DNA from: a virus
Virus record (IMG/VR): IMGVR_UViG_3300006871_000005
Coordinates: 1 to 41,627 of that record
Reading direction: 5' to 3' (one strand)
Length of the DNA: 41,627 nucleotides
Shown piece by piece: positions 18,365 through 26,932 of this stretch. Below the pieces are notes generated by a model. It saw nothing but the letters and a program-made list of their open reading frames with translations. It was not told the DNA's origin and made no database searches. Both the position numbers and the translations under genes were made by a program. Each line of letters begins with the position of its first letter. Position 1 is the stretch's first letter.

Positions 18365-19135
18365 CTAGGGCGTCTTGGCCTTGATGCGATAGAGGCCCAG
18401 TCGAACCTGCGGCTTGTCGGGATTCACCGGTGACGCTGAGTTGGGCGTGATGTAGACGCTCCACGGCTCGCCTGGTCCGCTGAATGCTGGCGTAATCACG
18501 GTGAGCCCGCTCACGCCGCTCGCGGTCGGCTGCGTAGTCTTCTTCACTGGAGCGGTCGTGCTCACGAAGACCTGCAGCGAGCAGTTGGGCGCGGTGTTCT
18601 TGCGGTATGTCCATCCGACGTAGGTGCAGCAGAGACTGTCTGCGCCCAGCATGAAGCCGAAAGGCGTAGCCCGCGTGGTATCGCCAGGCGCCGCGTTCGC
18701 CCAAATCCCGAGAGAGCCAGTCACCGCCGTTCCGGTCAGAACGAAGGCGTTCGGCACCGGCGTAAGCCAATGATTGGCAGCGGTGCAGTAGACCCAGAAC
18801 GTCCCCGTCGTGTCGCACCACGCGCGCAGCGTGTCCGTGGGCGGCGACGCCCCGAACGAGATCGAGGACGTCGGCCAGCCCTTCGTCGAGTCGGGCTTAT
18901 TTGCCGGCCATGCTTTCGTGCTGTCAGGCTTGTTCGCGGGCCAGGCCTTGGTGCTATCCGGTTTGTTGGCCGGCCAGGCTTTGGTCGAATCGGGTTTGTT
19001 CGCAGGCCATGCCTTCGTCGAGTCCGGACCCTGCGTGACCGGCGAATACGAGATCCCCGCGCCGCCAAAGACGACGCACGCCGCCGCGAGCGTGAGAAGC
19101 GCGCAGACCGCCCGCAGGTTCGTGTTCCGCATCAT
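18365..19135 (-). CDS. Exported protein with five 11-residue repeats, 256 aa
   Basis: An N-terminal hydrophobic signal (LRAVCALLTLAAACVVFGG) is followed by five tandem 11-residue units, four identical (PDSTKAWPANK) and a fifth diverged, then a beta-rich C-terminal domain with cysteines (WCDTTGTFWVYCTA, LCCTYVGWTYR). I choose the ATG at 19135 because it overlaps the previous stop (ATGA) and has GGATGGGA before it. The cysteines, the export signal and the proline/tryptophan linker suggest a periplasmic or surface-exposed stalk carrying a folded head. An unusual place for such a protein is the structural module, next to two other exported proteins. Confidence 0.65.
   Translation of the reverse strand: MMRNTNLRAVCALLTLAAACVVFGGAGISYSPVTQGPDSTKAWPANKPDSTKAWPANKPDSTKAWPANKPDSTKAWPANKPDSTKGWPTSSISFGASPPTDTLRAWCDTTGTFWVYCTAANHWLTPVPNAFVLTGTAVTGSLGIWANAAPGDTTRATPFGFMLGADSLCCTYVGWTYRKNTAPNCSLQVFVSTTAPVKKTTQPTASGVSGLTVITPAFSGPGEPWSVYITPNSASPVNPDKPQVRLGLYRIKAKTP
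18863..19027 (-). repeat. Five 33-bp tandem repeat units coding an 11-aa motif
   Basis: Units start at 19027, 18994, 18961, 18928 and 18895 and run leftward. Units 1-4 encode the same 11 residues but use different synonymous codons (for example TCG or AGC for Ser, AAG or AAA for Lys). The repeat is therefore old or conserved at the protein level rather than a fresh slippage product. Unit 5 ends in GWPTSS and forms the exit to the C-terminal domain. Confidence 0.9.
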
Positions 19136-19998: not shown

Positions 19999-20250
19999 CT
20001 ACTTCCCCGCCTTCGCCTTCTCATCCTTCGGCTCGACAACGGGCACCGGCGGCGCGGGCGGGAGCAGCGCCGCAATCTTCGCCGCGTCCACGTCCGTCGC
20101 CGCCCGGTAATCCTCCGCCTTCACCTCGCCCGCAAACGTCTTGAACTCGGCGTCGGAATCGAAGCTCACCGCCGAACCCTCGCCGACCGAGAAGTTCAGC
20201 GGCGGCGTCGCGCAGCCGATCGCCTTGTTCGCGATGATCTTGATTCCCAT
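19999..20250 (-). CDS. Small head-region protein with Pro/Lys-rich tail, 83 aa
   Basis: This soluble protein has an N-terminal beta part (GIKIIANKAIGCATPPL, FSVGEGSAVSFD), a central helix and a proline-rich, then lysine-rich tail (PPAPPVPVVEPKDEKAK). The GGAGG-preceded ATG at 20250 and the position directly after the decoration-like gene suggest a head accessory or head-fibre component. No known family is recognised. Confidence 0.6.
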   Translation of the reverse strand: MGIKIIANKAIGCATPPLNFSVGEGSAVSFDSDAEFKTFAGEVKAEDYRAATDVDAAKIAALLPPAPPVPVVEPKDEKAKAGK

Positions 20251-20757: not shown

Positions 20758-22341
20758 TTACGAGGCGCGGACGTCCGGGATGCCGTACGTGTGCTTGTCC
20801 GTCGTCGGAGGCGCCTGATTGAACGCCGCCCGGAGGAAGGACTTGAGGTAGAGCGCGTCCGAGTTGATCGCCGGAATCAGGTTGATCTGGAGATCGCGCT
20901 TGATTCCGAGCAGCCACCGCTCGGGCAGCGTGAGGATCGCCGTCGAGGCCGTCCCGGCGCCCGCGTTGTTACGACCGCTCGCCGCGAGCGTCGAAGGCAC
21001 CCACTCGGAAGCCACGATCGGGATGCCCCAGATCCGGCCGAGTTCGCCGGCCACGATCGTTGCCTGCGGACCATAGACGTCGATCGTCTTCACGACCGGA
21101 TCGCCGACGAGTCCGAGGTAGCCGATCGGATCGACGAACAGGCGGAGCCGCGACGGACTGACGGCACCGTACTTCGCCATCGCCGTGCGCGCCGCATGGA
21201 CCGCCGACGCCGTGAGCTTGCCAGCCTGCGCGGCCGTCTGGAACGCCGTACCACGCGCGGTAGCGCCAGTCGCCACCTGATCCGAGAAGAAGATGTACTG
21301 ACGGAGGCCGCAGAACACTTCGTTCGCGATCCCCGCGCCCACGTTCGGACGATCCGTTCCGTCCATCGCGTTGGCCGACGACTGCAGGAAGAGCGTGTTG
21401 TCGCCGTTGATGATCGCGGAATCCATCGCCTCCGCGTGCGCGAACATGAGCGCCTCGCGGTGCACCGCGATCGTCGAGACGATCAGGTCTTCCTCGGCCT
21501 CGACGGAGCAGGCCGTCGCGCCCGTGAACTTGTACTTCGGCGCGAGTTCGAGGTAGCCCGTGCCCGGCGTGGACAGATCAGCGGCGACAGGGAACATGAC
21601 CGGCTCGCTCGAATCCGTGAACTCCGCCGCCGCCTTGATCGACGCGCGCGCGGTGATCACCGGCTCGCGCCAGATCGCCAGCCCACGCGGGATCTGCCGC
21701 AGCGGGAAGTTCGCAGCGATCCCCGTCGGCAGACGGAAGAAAGGAATCACCTGCGTCGAGTAGACCGTCGGCTTCCACTCCGCGCCCTGGCCGGCGTTGT
21801 CCACCGACCAGAAGTCGTCTGCCGCCTTCGTGACCATCGCCTTCAACCGCGCGAGCTTCTTCGACGTCTTGACCGAGCCGGTGTACACCTCGCCCAGCGC
21901 CTGCGCCTTCATGCGCATGGCGTTGTGGTACAGGTCGATGTCACGGACCTGATCGTTCAGCCGCTGGACCTCGTGCAGCCAGCTTCCGCGCGCCGCCGGC
22001 TCCTCCATCGCCTCGTCGTACCCGAGGTGATGCATGAGCGCCGCCTGGTCGCGCGCGTTGTACGAGCCCTCTGGCGTCGCGCCGTCCATCACACGGCTCC
22101 GGCCCTTGACCTTGACGCCATCCTCCATGTGATCGCCGCGCTGCTTCTGCAGCGAGAGGATGTTGTCGCTCGCCGTCTTCAGATCGGCGGAGCCCGTCTT
22201 GAACGCTTCGAGGATCTGTGCCACGCCCTTGACCCACTCGCCATCGACCTTCTCGGTCACAGGCGGCGCGGGCGGCGTGTGCGTGGCTCCGACAGCGCCT
22301 TCTCCCTCGCCGAAGCGATGGATTGCGTCGTTGGGGATCAT
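20758..22341 (-). CDS. HK97-fold major capsid protein, 527 aa
   Basis: The protein follows the prohead protease and has the HK97 arrangement. Residues up to about 120 form a helical delta or scaffolding-like region (VAQILEAFKTGSADLKTAS), followed by the shell domain with the PFFRLPTGIAANFPLRQIPRG arm and IWGIPIVASEWVPST near the C-terminus. The ATG at 22341 overlaps the protease stop (ATGA). The N-terminal RFGEGEGAV recurs in the protease. The N-terminal region would be removed by the protease at maturation, as in HK97. Confidence 0.88.
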   Translation of the reverse strand: MIPNDAIHRFGEGEGAVGATHTPPAPPVTEKVDGEWVKGVAQILEAFKTGSADLKTASDNILSLQKQRGDHMEDGVKVKGRSRVMDGATPEGSYNARDQAALMHHLGYDEAMEEPAARGSWLHEVQRLNDQVRDIDLYHNAMRMKAQALGEVYTGSVKTSKKLARLKAMVTKAADDFWSVDNAGQGAEWKPTVYSTQVIPFFRLPTGIAANFPLRQIPRGLAIWREPVITARASIKAAAEFTDSSEPVMFPVAADLSTPGTGYLELAPKYKFTGATACSVEAEEDLIVSTIAVHREALMFAHAEAMDSAIINGDNTLFLQSSANAMDGTDRPNVGAGIANEVFCGLRQYIFFSDQVATGATARGTAFQTAAQAGKLTASAVHAARTAMAKYGAVSPSRLRLFVDPIGYLGLVGDPVVKTIDVYGPQATIVAGELGRIWGIPIVASEWVPSTLAASGRNNAGAGTASTAILTLPERWLLGIKRDLQINLIPAINSDALYLKSFLRAAFNQAPPTTDKHTYGIPDVRAS

Positions 22342-23192
22342 GCCTTGCCTCCGACAACCGGAAGGTGAGATCCAACGGTCACGCCCGCCAACGCCGCGCC
22401 CGGAAGACTCCGGAGAACTTCGTTGAGGACCGCATGGACTTCCGCGTGGCCAGGAAGCGGCCCACGCGCTTGCTCGCCGGAGATTCCGGCGGACACCGAC
22501 CTGCCGAGTCGGTCTTTCACCGCGCTCGCCATCCCGAACACGGCGCCACGGTTTGCAGGGACAGGAACGACGGAAATTTCGAGCAGCTCCAGCTTCGTGA
22601 TGCGCGACACGCCCGGACGCTTCGCGTCCTCCTTGATGTCGCCCATCTCCAACCAGAACCCGATCGAGAACGCCTTGAGGATGCCCTCTTCGATCTGCGT
22701 GCGGACCATCTCTGCGGTCCCCGCCGCCTTGGACAGAGCGACGCGCACCCACAGCCCACCGGACTGGATTTCGAGCTTGATGGCCTTGCCGATGGGCATT
22801 GCGAAGGAGTGCGCGAAGAGGACGACGGGGAACTTCTTGTAGCGCGGAAGCGTCTCGCGGAAGGCGTCCGGCTCGACGATCTCCTTGAACGAATCGACCT
22901 GCGTGGTCGAAGCCATGCCCTCGACGACGAACTCGTCCGCGCCCACGCCCTTGGTGACGCGCTCGAGGTTGTCGATGTCGAGGGTAAGGCGCGGCTCCCA
23001 CTCGCCGCCGTTCTTGCCGGCGGTGACGCGCGCAATGAGCGCCGCGATCTCCGCGTCGCTCGTCGTATCGGAGGGAGGAACTTCCGGGGGATGGACCTCG
23101 GCGACGGCGCCCTCGCCCTCACCGAATCGCGCAGGCTCTCCGCTGCCCAGCAGCGCCGCGCACTTCGCATGGCCGAGTTCGTTTCGGCTCAG
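22338..23192 (-). CDS. HK97-family prohead protease, probable CTG start
   Basis: This serine protease of the S78 type matures the capsid. Visible are VVEGMASTTQVDSF (the usual first strand), VLFAHSFAMPIG (catalytic histidine), KAFSIGFWL (catalytic serine) and LEISVVPVPAN. A GTG at 22946 would give 202 aa, but it has no ribosome-binding site and leaves out family-like sequence (EWEPRLTLDIDN). The same frame stays open for 82 codons back to the portal stop, and a CTG at 23192 lies five bases after GGGAG, giving 284 aa. I prefer the longer form. Confidence 0.75.
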   Translation of the reverse strand: MSRNELGHAKCAALLGSGEPARFGEGEGAVAEVHPPEVPPSDTTSDAEIAALIARVTAGKNGGEWEPRLTLDIDNLERVTKGVGADEFVVEGMASTTQVDSFKEIVEPDAFRETLPRYKKFPVVLFAHSFAMPIGKAIKLEIQSGGLWVRVALSKAAGTAEMVRTQIEEGILKAFSIGFWLEMGDIKEDAKRPGVSRITKLELLEISVVPVPANRGAVFGMASAVKDRLGRSVSAGISGEQARGPLPGHAEVHAVLNEVLRSLPGAALAGVTVGSHLPVVGGKA

Positions 23193-25403
23193 TCAATCTC
23201 CCGTGTTCGTGAAGATCGGACGAGTAACACAACGACAATTGCAGACCTGGCCCACGTCGTCAATCGCTCCAGGGTACTCGCCGCGGCTGCCGTCGGGCAG
23301 TACGAAGTTCTCGCCGAGTGCGACGACCACGCCGTCCATGGCCTCATGGTCGGGGCGCACACGGTCGTCCTCCGCCGTCAGCCACTCGTGCTCTTCGATC
23401 CCGGCTTCCTTGTAGACGTCGAGCGAGCCGGCGTTGTAGAGCCCCCCCGTCTCCGTCCGGGCGATCCGCTCCGCCCAGGAACCGGCGAGGTCGTCGAAGT
23501 GCTCCCCGATCTGCCCGGCGAGCTCGCGGACGGTGAGGCCCTCGGTCGCCGCCTCCTCCACGAGATCCATGAGCGCCTGCCGCTGGGTCGCGGTGACTGC
23601 GTCCGTCGCCTCGTTGACCCACTGGCCGAGGAACTCCCGGGCCTTCGGGCCGTCCACGTTCACGACGTAGGACGCCGCCTTCTTCGCGCCGGATGCCACG
23701 ATCTCCGACGCATCCCGGACGCCCAGCTTGTAGGTCGCGCGCGCGGGTGCGCGGAACTCGGCGTTCGCCGAGCGATGGAGGCCCGCGGTGTAGTCGAGCG
23801 CGATGAGCGCGTGCCCTACGGCGTCCGAGCCCTTGGGCGCCGCAAGGTGCAGGAGCCGTAGCGCCTCGGTCTTCCCCGCGCGCGCCGCGCGCCGCGCCGC
23901 CGCCTCCCAGAGCCCGTGTAGCCGGAGGATCCGGGAGGACACCGTCCGGACGATCCGCGTTCGCTCGGCCTTCTCCTTCGGCGCGTTCTTCCCGATCCAC
24001 TCGCCGGGCACCGGCTCGATCGCGGCCAGCGCCATCTCGGGGTCCGGCGCACGCTCGAAGCCGACGCTATTCCCGCCCCCTCCGCCGCCCCCAGGGGCCG
24101 CGGGCGTGTCCCCAGGTGCCCCTGGTTCGGTCGTGGGCGCCACGGGCCGGAGGAACGGCGGGATGTCGCCCCAGGGCAAGGCCTGCCCATAGTCGCGCTT
24201 CTCACGGATCTCGTTGATCGTCTCGATCCCCCGGTCCACGTTCCCTTGGTCGATCGCCGCCGCCGCCCGCGTGTCCTCTTTCAGCGCCTCGATCCGCGAG
24301 TAGTCGAAGACCACCTTCACCCCAAAGATCGTGGTGAGGGGATGCGAGTTCAGGCGCTCGGACTTGATCTCGTTCTGGGGGATGACCGTGCCGCGGTAGA
24401 ACTGCTGGTCCTGCTGGCGGGCCGTCGCGTACGCCGCGTACTCCATCAGCCCGGTCTGCACCGGCGGCACCCCGAACACAGCGTGCACCTCCTCGCGGAG
24501 CATCCCCAGGAGCTTCGTGAACTCGGCCTCGCGCATGTTCATGCCGGCTTCCACGAAGTCGGCCGCCCCGATGAACAGCGTCGAGTGCCGCTTCCCCTGG
24601 CCGACGTGCGCGGAGTTCAGCTCGGCCTTCACCCGCGCCATCTGGGCGTCCGACATCATCCCGCCGGCCGGCGCCTTCACGATCCCCGAGATCCGCATGC
24701 CGTTCCGGAACATGTCCTCGTTCCAGCCGTAGGCCTCGTGCATCAGCCGGAGCGTGCGCTCAAGCTGCCGGAGCCGCGAGAGGCCGTAGAGCGGGTCGCG
24801 GATGTTCGGCTCGCGGAAGTGGATCACCTGGCCGACGTCGAGCGGCACGACCTTCCCGCTGGCGTTCGTGAACTCATAGCCCTCGATCGGGAAGGCCGAT
24901 GACGTCGAGGGGACGACGCGCATCTTGTCGGGCCGCGCGAACCAGATCTCCAGGTTCTGAACGTCGGACATGGATGTGAGCGACGGCGGGTTCCCGCTGC
25001 CGTCGTCGAGGATCCAGTACGCGTTTCCCGCGACGAGGATCGCGAGATCCGAGAGAATCCGAAGCTCCCAGCCGCTCATCGTGTCGTTCGGACGGTTGAG
25101 CCGCTGGATCAGCGGGTGCTCGAAGTCGATGTCCCCAGAGCCGCCCCGCGCGCCCCATGGCACCCCGGCCGCGCTCCGTGAGATCGCTCGCGTACACGCC
25201 TCCACCCACGAGAAGAGCCCCGTCGAGTTCACGAACGCCGCGAAGTCCTGCTCGACGGGCTCCGCGCCCTTGCCCGCGAACATGCGCGAGAGCATCAGCT
25301 CTTCGAGCATCGCCGACCAGATGGGGTTGTTCTTCGTGCGGAAGGAGTGCACGGCTTGACGCGCCGTGCGCACGGGATGCAGGAGGACGTCGGCTAGAGC
25401 CAT
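23193..25403 (-). CDS. Portal protein fused to Mu gpF-like domain, 736 aa
   Basis: Residues 1 to about 430 are a portal protein of HK97 type: WVEACTRAISRSAAGVPW, GNAYWILDDG, VIHFREPNIRDPLYGLSRL and FGVPPVQTGL are recognisable. A glycine-rich linker (GGGGGGGN) near residue 460 leads to a C-terminal Mu gpF-like head morphogenesis domain, ending in IARTETGG, then DDRVRPDHEAMDG and CNCRCVTRP. Fusions of these two are known in phages. The domain is thought to help early head assembly or be injected. The stop codon is UGA followed by C, in frame with the downstream protease. Confidence 0.9.
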   Translation of the reverse strand: MALADVLLHPVRTARQAVHSFRTKNNPIWSAMLEELMLSRMFAGKGAEPVEQDFAAFVNSTGLFSWVEACTRAISRSAAGVPWGARGGSGDIDFEHPLIQRLNRPNDTMSGWELRILSDLAILVAGNAYWILDDGSGNPPSLTSMSDVQNLEIWFARPDKMRVVPSTSSAFPIEGYEFTNASGKVVPLDVGQVIHFREPNIRDPLYGLSRLRQLERTLRLMHEAYGWNEDMFRNGMRISGIVKAPAGGMMSDAQMARVKAELNSAHVGQGKRHSTLFIGAADFVEAGMNMREAEFTKLLGMLREEVHAVFGVPPVQTGLMEYAAYATARQQDQQFYRGTVIPQNEIKSERLNSHPLTTIFGVKVVFDYSRIEALKEDTRAAAAIDQGNVDRGIETINEIREKRDYGQALPWGDIPPFLRPVAPTTEPGAPGDTPAAPGGGGGGGNSVGFERAPDPEMALAAIEPVPGEWIGKNAPKEKAERTRIVRTVSSRILRLHGLWEAAARRAARAGKTEALRLLHLAAPKGSDAVGHALIALDYTAGLHRSANAEFRAPARATYKLGVRDASEIVASGAKKAASYVVNVDGPKAREFLGQWVNEATDAVTATQRQALMDLVEEAATEGLTVRELAGQIGEHFDDLAGSWAERIARTETGGLYNAGSLDVYKEAGIEEHEWLTAEDDRVRPDHEAMDGVVVALGENFVLPDGSRGEYPGAIDDVGQVCNCRCVTRPIFTNTGD

Positions 25404-26932
25404 TCGATCGTCACCGCGCGGCGCGACGCTAGTGCCCAGCAGGCGAGCGCCAAGGCCATGACCGAGTCGGTCACAATCTGCTCGTCGTCCCAGCGATAGT
25501 CAAGCAACTCCCGCACGAGCTGCCCGATGTTCGGGATCCTGATCTCCCGGTGCTGGATCATCCGCTGCAGGTTCACGATCATCATCGTCTTGCTGTTCGG
25601 CGTGAAGATGAAGCCCGGAGGCGCGCCTTCCGCCTTCCGCCAGAGCGCGTTCGACGGGACGTCCAGGTGATCCGAGGTGACCCCGCCCACACCCGTCGCA
25701 TCGAAGATGACCGTGGACTGGAACTGATTGTGCCGCGCGAGCATGCGGGCTTCGACGACCGGCCAGGGAGCGTGCTGGAACCGCTCATAGGCGTAGAGCT
25801 GGTGGGGCAGCTTGCCCTTCCCCCCGCAGTCCGGACACGGCACGTAGACGCCCAGCGAACCGTCACCGCCCAGCACGTGGCCCTTCTCCTGGCAGCGCGG
25901 GCACGTGCCGCTCGCCTCGAGAGTGATCCCTACCGTGTGGTCGATCGACTTCGCGAGGTCCCAGCCGTCCACGAAGAAGAGCGAGGGATCGTAGGGGCGC
26001 TGCTGCGGCATGTCGTCGTCCACGATCGCCCAGATCTCTTCTGCGGTCCACGGCTGGTCGCCGAGGTCCACGAACTCGCACTCGGCCTCCTGGCGGTAGA
26101 GCCAGTCGGGCATGGACGCCTTCATCTGGGCGAGGTCCTCGGCGCTGTTCGCGGGGTTCGCCGCCGAGCCGAACTTGTGGACGGAAAACGTGGGGTCGTT
26201 GCTCGTCTGCTTCACGGCGAGGTCGCGGAAGAACTTCCCGGCCTGCTTCGCCGCGCCGATCGTCAGGCTCCGGCCGCCGCGGTCGAGGAGCGTCGGAAAG
26301 ATCGAGGACCAGAACGTCTTCTCGTTGAAGTTCTTGTGGCCCGCCTCATCCGACACGGCGAACCGGAGACCGAGCCCTTCGCCCGGCATCTCGCCGTCGA
26401 GCGAGTACGCCCAGAGCCGCGTACCCCAGATCGTTTCGAGGCGCGGGTTGGTCTTCGGGGGTTCGCCGCGCACGAGACGCGGGTAGGCGATCCAACGCCT
26501 AGGCCAGCCCTTTTGCCGCAGCAGCCGCGTCCAGTTCATGTCGAGAAGACGGCCGGTGAGATCCGAGGTGGGCGCGAACAGCGCGATGTCCTCGTAGTCC
26601 GCCGTCGCGTTCCACATCATCATCTCGACTTCGACTTCGCGCGCCCCCGACGTGGTGCCGCCCCCGCGCCGCCCCTTCACGAGGACGCGGTGCCTGTGCT
26701 CGTCTGCGTGGAGTGCGAGTTGAAGCTCGTGCGCGGGGCGCCCGTCGGCGGTGTACCCGGTCGCCTCAGTCCAGAGATTCAGAAGCTCCCGACGGATCGG
26801 CGCCAGCTTCGGATCCGTCGCCTTCATCCGCGGTAGCGTCTTCATCATGGCCGCCGCTTCCGCTTCCGAGACGTTTCGGAGCAGAGCCGTTAGCGCGGGC
26901 GCGGAGGAGCTGAACGAAGGGGCTATCGGCAT
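25394..26932 (-). CDS. Terminase large subunit, 512 aa
   Basis: This is the packaging motor. Walker A is unusual: K86 followed by GRRGGGTTSG (87-96), which lacks the normal lysine before Ser/Thr but has one at the start, like the deviant motif of lambda gpA. Walker B is FAVSDEA (191-197). The nuclease domain begins at FFVDGWD (319-325) with a later IFDATGVGG. A CPRC...CPDCGGKG insertion lies at residues 344-372. The start is uncertain: the ATG at 26932 overlaps the small subunit by 167 bases and lacks a strong site, so an internal Met is possible. Confidence 0.88.
   Translation of the reverse strand: MPIAPSFSSSAPALTALLRNVSEAEAAAMMKTLPRMKATDPKLAPIRRELLNLWTEATGYTADGRPAHELQLALHADEHRHRVLVKGRRGGGTTSGAREVEVEMMMWNATADYEDIALFAPTSDLTGRLLDMNWTRLLRQKGWPRRWIAYPRLVRGEPPKTNPRLETIWGTRLWAYSLDGEMPGEGLGLRFAVSDEAGHKNFNEKTFWSSIFPTLLDRGGRSLTIGAAKQAGKFFRDLAVKQTSNDPTFSVHKFGSAANPANSAEDLAQMKASMPDWLYRQEAECEFVDLGDQPWTAEEIWAIVDDDMPQQRPYDPSLFFVDGWDLAKSIDHTVGITLEASGTCPRCQEKGHVLGGDGSLGVYVPCPDCGGKGKLPHQLYAYERFQHAPWPVVEARMLARHNQFQSTVIFDATGVGGVTSDHLDVPSNALWRKAEGAPPGFIFTPNSKTMMIVNLQRMIQHREIRIPNIGQLVRELLDYRWDDEQIVTDSVMALALACWALASRRAVTIEWL

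Follow-up and report, generated by a model that had tools for sequence, protein, structure and literature searches.

An RFGEGEGAV peptide shared by the maturation protease and the capsid scaffold domain of a phage: a possible assembly tag

What brings the correct number of prohead proteases into the shell is only partly understood. In phage lambda (gpC and Nu3) and in herpesviruses (assemblin and scaffold), nested genes give the protease a scaffold sequence, and it is this sequence that incorporates the protease. The HK97 protease reportedly has its targeting signal in its C-terminal part, and we know of no peptide that is common to protease and delta domain in heads of the HK97/T5 type. The HK97 procapsid contains about 60 protease copies (PMC12749128). 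In T4, ten N-terminal residues of IPIII are enough for head entry and the propeptide of IPII is identical (PMC9026906, PMC5694885); the propeptides of the gp21 protease have been suggested to act like this capsid targeting sequence (PMC9026906).

The window, which is the stretch of DNA analysed here, comprises 41,627 bases of 66% GC and forms a linear virus record; its head genes lie on the minus strand in the order terminase large subunit, portal-MuF, Peptidase_S78 protease and major capsid protein:

25394..26932, minus strand: terminase large subunit (PHROG 2, E=3.1e-19)
23193..25403, minus strand: portal protein carrying a fused MuF (head morphogenesis) domain (PF04860, E=1.5e-53; PF04233, E=5.3e-14)
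22338..23192, minus strand: prohead (head maturation) protease, 284 residues, its frame counted from the first codon beyond the portal stop
20758..22341, minus strand: major capsid protein of 527 residues, with the HK97 fold (T5 pb8 type) and a scaffold (delta) domain at its N-terminus

The locus resembles HK97 and T5 heads in its gene order of portal, protease and capsid, in the delta domain on the capsid protein and in its separate protease. Protease and capsid are two genes rather than one open reading frame, and the capsid ATG overlaps the protease stop (ATGA at 22338-22341).

Both assignments rest on several kinds of comparison. The protease matches PF04586 (Peptidase_S78; E=3.3e-19, residues 97-217) with 70 bits against a curated cut-off of 21, and PHROG 80 (head maturation protease); its His/Ser residues, H128 and S176, are invariant across 30 sequences, and its best fold match is 5jbl (T4 gp21; E=2.2e-6), with herpesvirus proteases next. 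In an AlphaFold2 model built on relatives' alignments the S78 domain is confident, the N-terminus to residue 44 is of very low confidence, and a helix is predicted at residues 46-58, with a linker of low confidence. The capsid protein has weak PHROG matches to major head proteins, tblastn matches to T5-like and other phage capsids, and fold matches to the T5 and DT57C capsids with E down to 5.8e-14. Most of its residues 1-33 are modelled by AlphaFold2 without confident structure, and helices at 35-79, 96-105, 120-148 and 157-179 precede the HK97 shell fold with modest confidence. This region is read as the scaffold domain:

21826..22341, minus strand: predicted scaffold (delta) domain, which spans residues 1-172 up to a near-invariant Lys172/Ala173 junction

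Lys172 is conserved in at least 90% of the aligned sequences and Ala173 is invariant in a smaller alignment; the pair is close to where the scaffold helices end, ahead of the shell domain. The HK97 capsid protein is cut after a lysine, and Lys172/Ala173 is likely to mark the region of maturation cleavage in the capsid protein of the window.

Two copies of one peptide lie near the N-termini of these two proteins:

23103..23129, minus strand: RFGEGEGAV in the protease frame, residues 22-30 as numbered from the CTG at 23192
22291..22317, minus strand: RFGEGEGAV in the capsid protein, residues 9-17

A preliminary description of this DNA had placed the motif in the protease extension and the capsid N-terminal region, each time before a proline-rich stretch, and we find both nine-residue copies there, on the minus strand, followed by HPPEVPP in the protease and HTPPAPP in the capsid. 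A six-frame search of the window gave no third copy in any frame. The 27-mers that encode the motif, CGATTCGGTGAGGGCGAGGGCGCCGTC in the protease and CGCTTCGGCGAGGGAGAAGGCGCTGTC in the capsid, differ at five of 27 positions (3, 9, 15, 18 and 24), every one of them a third codon position and every one synonymous. The GAG/GAA and GGC/GGA changes named earlier are correct and form part of the set, since CGA/CGC, GGT/GGC and GCC/GCT differ too. Five random substitutions in the motif would all be synonymous with P=4.75e-4. Because nine residues are identical while all five DNA differences are silent, the motif appears to be under selection at the protein level; the comparison points to RFGEGEGAV being constrained as protein, in agreement with the earlier view that the protein and not the DNA is conserved. 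An element acting at the DNA or RNA level, such as a purine-rich signal for translation or packaging, would fit the purine richness of both copies and their nearness to the gene starts (+25 and +64), but differences confined to third codon positions are the opposite of what conservation at the nucleotide level would leave. Because only third positions differ, we set this idea aside as extremely improbable.

The GEGEG core is of low complexity, and the match could in principle be a coincidence of glycine/glutamate-rich sequence. Nine residues is the longest common substring of protease and capsid, a length reached in none of 20,000 composition-preserving shuffles (longest 8, with one occurrence) and in none of 10,000 first-order Markov resamplings (longest 7). 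The next best of the 703 gene pairs of the window has seven residues in common, with values of at most 7 across the 702 pairs other than protease and capsid, and the 67 split protease/capsid pairs of relatives likewise share at most 7. The nine-residue match is beyond chance and statistically strong.

The similarity between the two proteins extends without gaps over 35 residues, with the motif at its head:

23025..23129, minus strand: shared 35-residue block of the protease, consisting of the motif, the proline-rich linker HPPEVPP and the start of a helix (gap-free alignment, AlphaFold2)
22213..22317, minus strand: shared 35-residue block of the capsid, consisting of the motif, the proline-rich linker HTPPAPP and the start of a scaffold helix (AlphaFold2)

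The block has a BLOSUM62 score of 80, compared with a shuffle mean of 25.7 and a maximum of 52. The portion after the motif is weakly significant alone (42 of 2000 shuffles were as good), and the alignment shows no similarity between protease and capsid upstream of the motif; a sharp, conserved nine-residue core heads a loosely similar segment. Common to both proteins is a layout of motif, proline-rich linker and helix, the predicted helix starting 15 residues (protease) or 17 residues (capsid) after the end of the motif (AlphaFold2). When compared with PHROG and with solved structures, the block had no PHROG match and no structure match of note. The shared part is short, separately encoded and a diverged copy, whereas that of lambda and the herpesviruses is long and results when one gene is read in overlapping parts. 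For the split relatives, a general resemblance of protease flanks to delta domains was considered and rejected, the best z being 4.7, with coiled-coil-like similarity only, as against about 10 for the window pair. Also rejected was a candidate third bearer, an 83-residue protein at 19999-20250 that contains NFSVGEGSAV and PPAPPV but whose similarity falls within the shuffle range.

The start codon of the protease bears on whether its copy of the motif is translated at all. The frame opens right after the portal TGA (23193-23195), in the same frame as the portal, and before the protease domain it holds no ATG, GTG or TTG upstream of GTG 22946 (residue 83). No standard start codon precedes the motif, which would be untranslated in the protease if synthesis began at this GTG; the GTG is downstream of the motif, of K81 and of the strands predicted at the beginning of the protease domain. 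Such a start would remove those strands and K81, which is invariant in the close alignment, and for this reason we conclude that initiation probably occurs upstream of it. Codon usage also argues against non-translation, since the protease frame is the best of the three throughout the extension, if only by a narrow margin around the motif. The most likely start is a CTG preceded by a plausible ribosome-binding sequence:

23190..23192, minus strand: candidate CTG start, directly after the portal stop
23198..23202, minus strand: Shine-Dalgarno-like GGGAG, spaced 5 nt from the candidate CTG

Alternative routes are readthrough of the UGA, which would give a portal-MuF-protease fusion, a frameshift, or an assembly error; for the protease product to include the motif, translation must use a non-ATG start or read through the stop. 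An ordinary start codon precedes the protease domain in 169 of 172 relatives. A weak start could limit the copy number of the protease. Taken as one, the two objections, coincidence of composition and a motif left untranslated in the protease, appear quite unlikely to explain the pair.

Exact-peptide scans of viral_contigs with capsid and portal queries revealed no close relatives; profile-guided scans yielded many distant ones. RFGEGEGAV is absent from both proteins in all 110 related loci that carry protease and capsid genes. A search for the same pair of motifs in related phages had been proposed as a check; neither partner of any relative has the motif, but no protease in the set exceeds about 45% identity, and at this distance the outcome speaks neither for nor against the idea. 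The shared peptide is known from one phage only. A pattern back-translated from RFGEGEGAV matched one contig, which is unrelated and has no protease, capsid, portal or terminase match, and the loci matched by a shorter motif pattern in genome_contigs likewise have none of these; neither was retained. Also discarded was RFGEGEGIG, repeated in reverse-strand frames of seven related contigs (L168, L176, L178, L181, L183, L186 and L187), which is probably antisense to phage genes. A search for prophages in about 1,490 bacterial genomes of four phyla, plus single genomes, gave no capsid match at the set thresholds, a weak negative, and plasmids gave no match.

The relatives are informative in another respect. 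In 43 of the 110 related loci protease and capsid are in one open frame, and in 67 they are apart. Single-frame loci encoding protease, scaffold and capsid include L211, L212, L213 and L215 (fusions of the PHROG 617 and 4523 type) as well as L217, L218, L233, L245, L256 and L291, and the five best matches to the window protease are all fused (L211, L212, L369, which is an overlapping copy of L212, L291 and L213). These fusions have the closest proteases, at about 45% identity, and related capsids; they differ from the window in forming one chain instead of two genes, and those inspected have short N-termini with neither an N-terminal extension nor the motif. A tree built from 80 protease domains places the window protease among nine fused rows and one split row (support 94/90); the placement is unsure because the branch of the window protease is long (1.63), and several changes between the fused and split states occur on the tree.

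It is possible in this light that the shared segment is an evolutionary relic, an ancestral protease-capsid fusion having split or been partly duplicated so that both products kept an N-terminal segment with no shared function today. The fused state of the nearest relatives, the overlap of capsid start and protease stop, and the location of the block at both N-termini, with divergence downstream, would all suit such a history. Even decay would then be expected rather than a sharp nine-residue core, an N-terminal segment of this kind is missing from the fused relatives, and nine fixed residues with five silent DNA differences (P=4.75e-4) point to selection; we regard a functionless relic as improbable.

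A second contrast concerns the other end of the protease. In split relatives a median of 274 residues follows the protease domain, compared with 60 in the window. The long tail that most split relatives have at the C-terminus may serve protease entry, and with 60 residues in its place another targeting device would be useful to the window protease. A fused relative takes its protease into the shell as one portion of the scaffold-capsid chain. The window protease has neither the fusion nor the long tail, but its N-terminal segment copies the tip of the scaffold domain, and a shared tag would be an economical reading of this arrangement.

Two functions had been offered in the preliminary description, a self-recognition or cleavage tag of the protease and a docking peptide for assembly. 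If the first were correct, the protease would recognise and cut both copies of RFGEGEGAV, that of its propeptide and that of the capsid N-terminus, for example after F-G-E, which bears a loose similarity to the hydrophobic-x-Glu sites known for T4 gp21 (LIE-9 in gp21, PMC9026906). The long propeptides of SPN3US are cut at several sites (PMC10052503), and in T4 one short peptide does both targeting and cleavage. The capsid copy, however, occupies residues 9-17, at the tip of the predicted scaffold domain, about 155 residues ahead of Lys172/Ala173, and owing to that distance it is not the expected maturation site. The motif is moreover missing altogether from relatives of both proteins, and a cleavage site would not need nine strictly conserved residues. 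Cleavage at the motif thus seems unlikely, although its loose likeness to gp21 sites leaves some chance that a propeptide is removed there. Docking is the best-supported of the suggestions made earlier: a predicted function, it fits the anatomy of a disordered tag, linker and helix, the apparent selection on protein, and a family rich in fusions.

We propose that motif, linker and helix together constitute an N-terminal assembly-targeting tag that the maturation protease and the scaffold (delta) domain of the capsid have in common, a reading to which we give a little less than an even chance. During procapsid formation, the tags of both proteins would engage the same partner, either other scaffold domains or the portal/MuF complex, and this engagement would draw sub-stoichiometric protease into the procapsid interior; destruction of the scaffold domain would follow, probably together with that of the protease extension. 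The protease would in effect carry a copy of the scaffold start as its entry ticket, replacing the covalent protease-scaffold-capsid fusion of its nearest relatives. The proposal builds on the shared block, its excess over chance, the constraint on protein, the position in both proteins, the split of the genes and the fused relatives, and from these we infer the binding of the tag, its partner, the targeting and the later removal.

The proposed tag is best read as analogous to the T4 capsid targeting sequence (internal proteins IPI-III), placed on the capsid's own scaffold domain. Both are short N-terminal peptides common to two or more head proteins, and that of T4 directs procapsid entry; the likeness drawn here is one of description, and for the window targeting is a presumed role. 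The bearers in the window differ from those of T4 in being the protease and the capsid scaffold domain, with no separate core known as the target. If the proposal is true, the protease-entry step becomes directly testable through a nine-residue peptide, the splitting of fused protease-capsid genes without loss of protease incorporation is explained, and enzymes might be loaded into shells derived from phages by means of a short, portable tag.

A broader, rather doubtful extension is that, where protease and capsid are separate proteins in this T5-like lineage, some phages swap the covalent link for the same terminal module on both proteins, which would set the amount of protease. Another such case may be the split relative L216 (4620-7864), in which zinc-ribbon-like segments with two CxxC each are present in the capsid N-terminus (WKCTKCGELHESKVDKCSKC) and in the protease tail (CECVECGNKVESKKHCKDIKCSKC). 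Among the 67 split relatives L216 is the only one with CxxC pairs in both protease and capsid; as a single case seen post hoc, it suggests that the sharing of terminal modules between the two proteins may recur.

Elsewhere in the window, the protein encoded at 18365-19135 has four tandem 11-residue repeats of the KPDSTKAWPAN type behind a signal-peptide-like N-terminus, and these correspond to a 33-base DNA repeat at 18872-19024.
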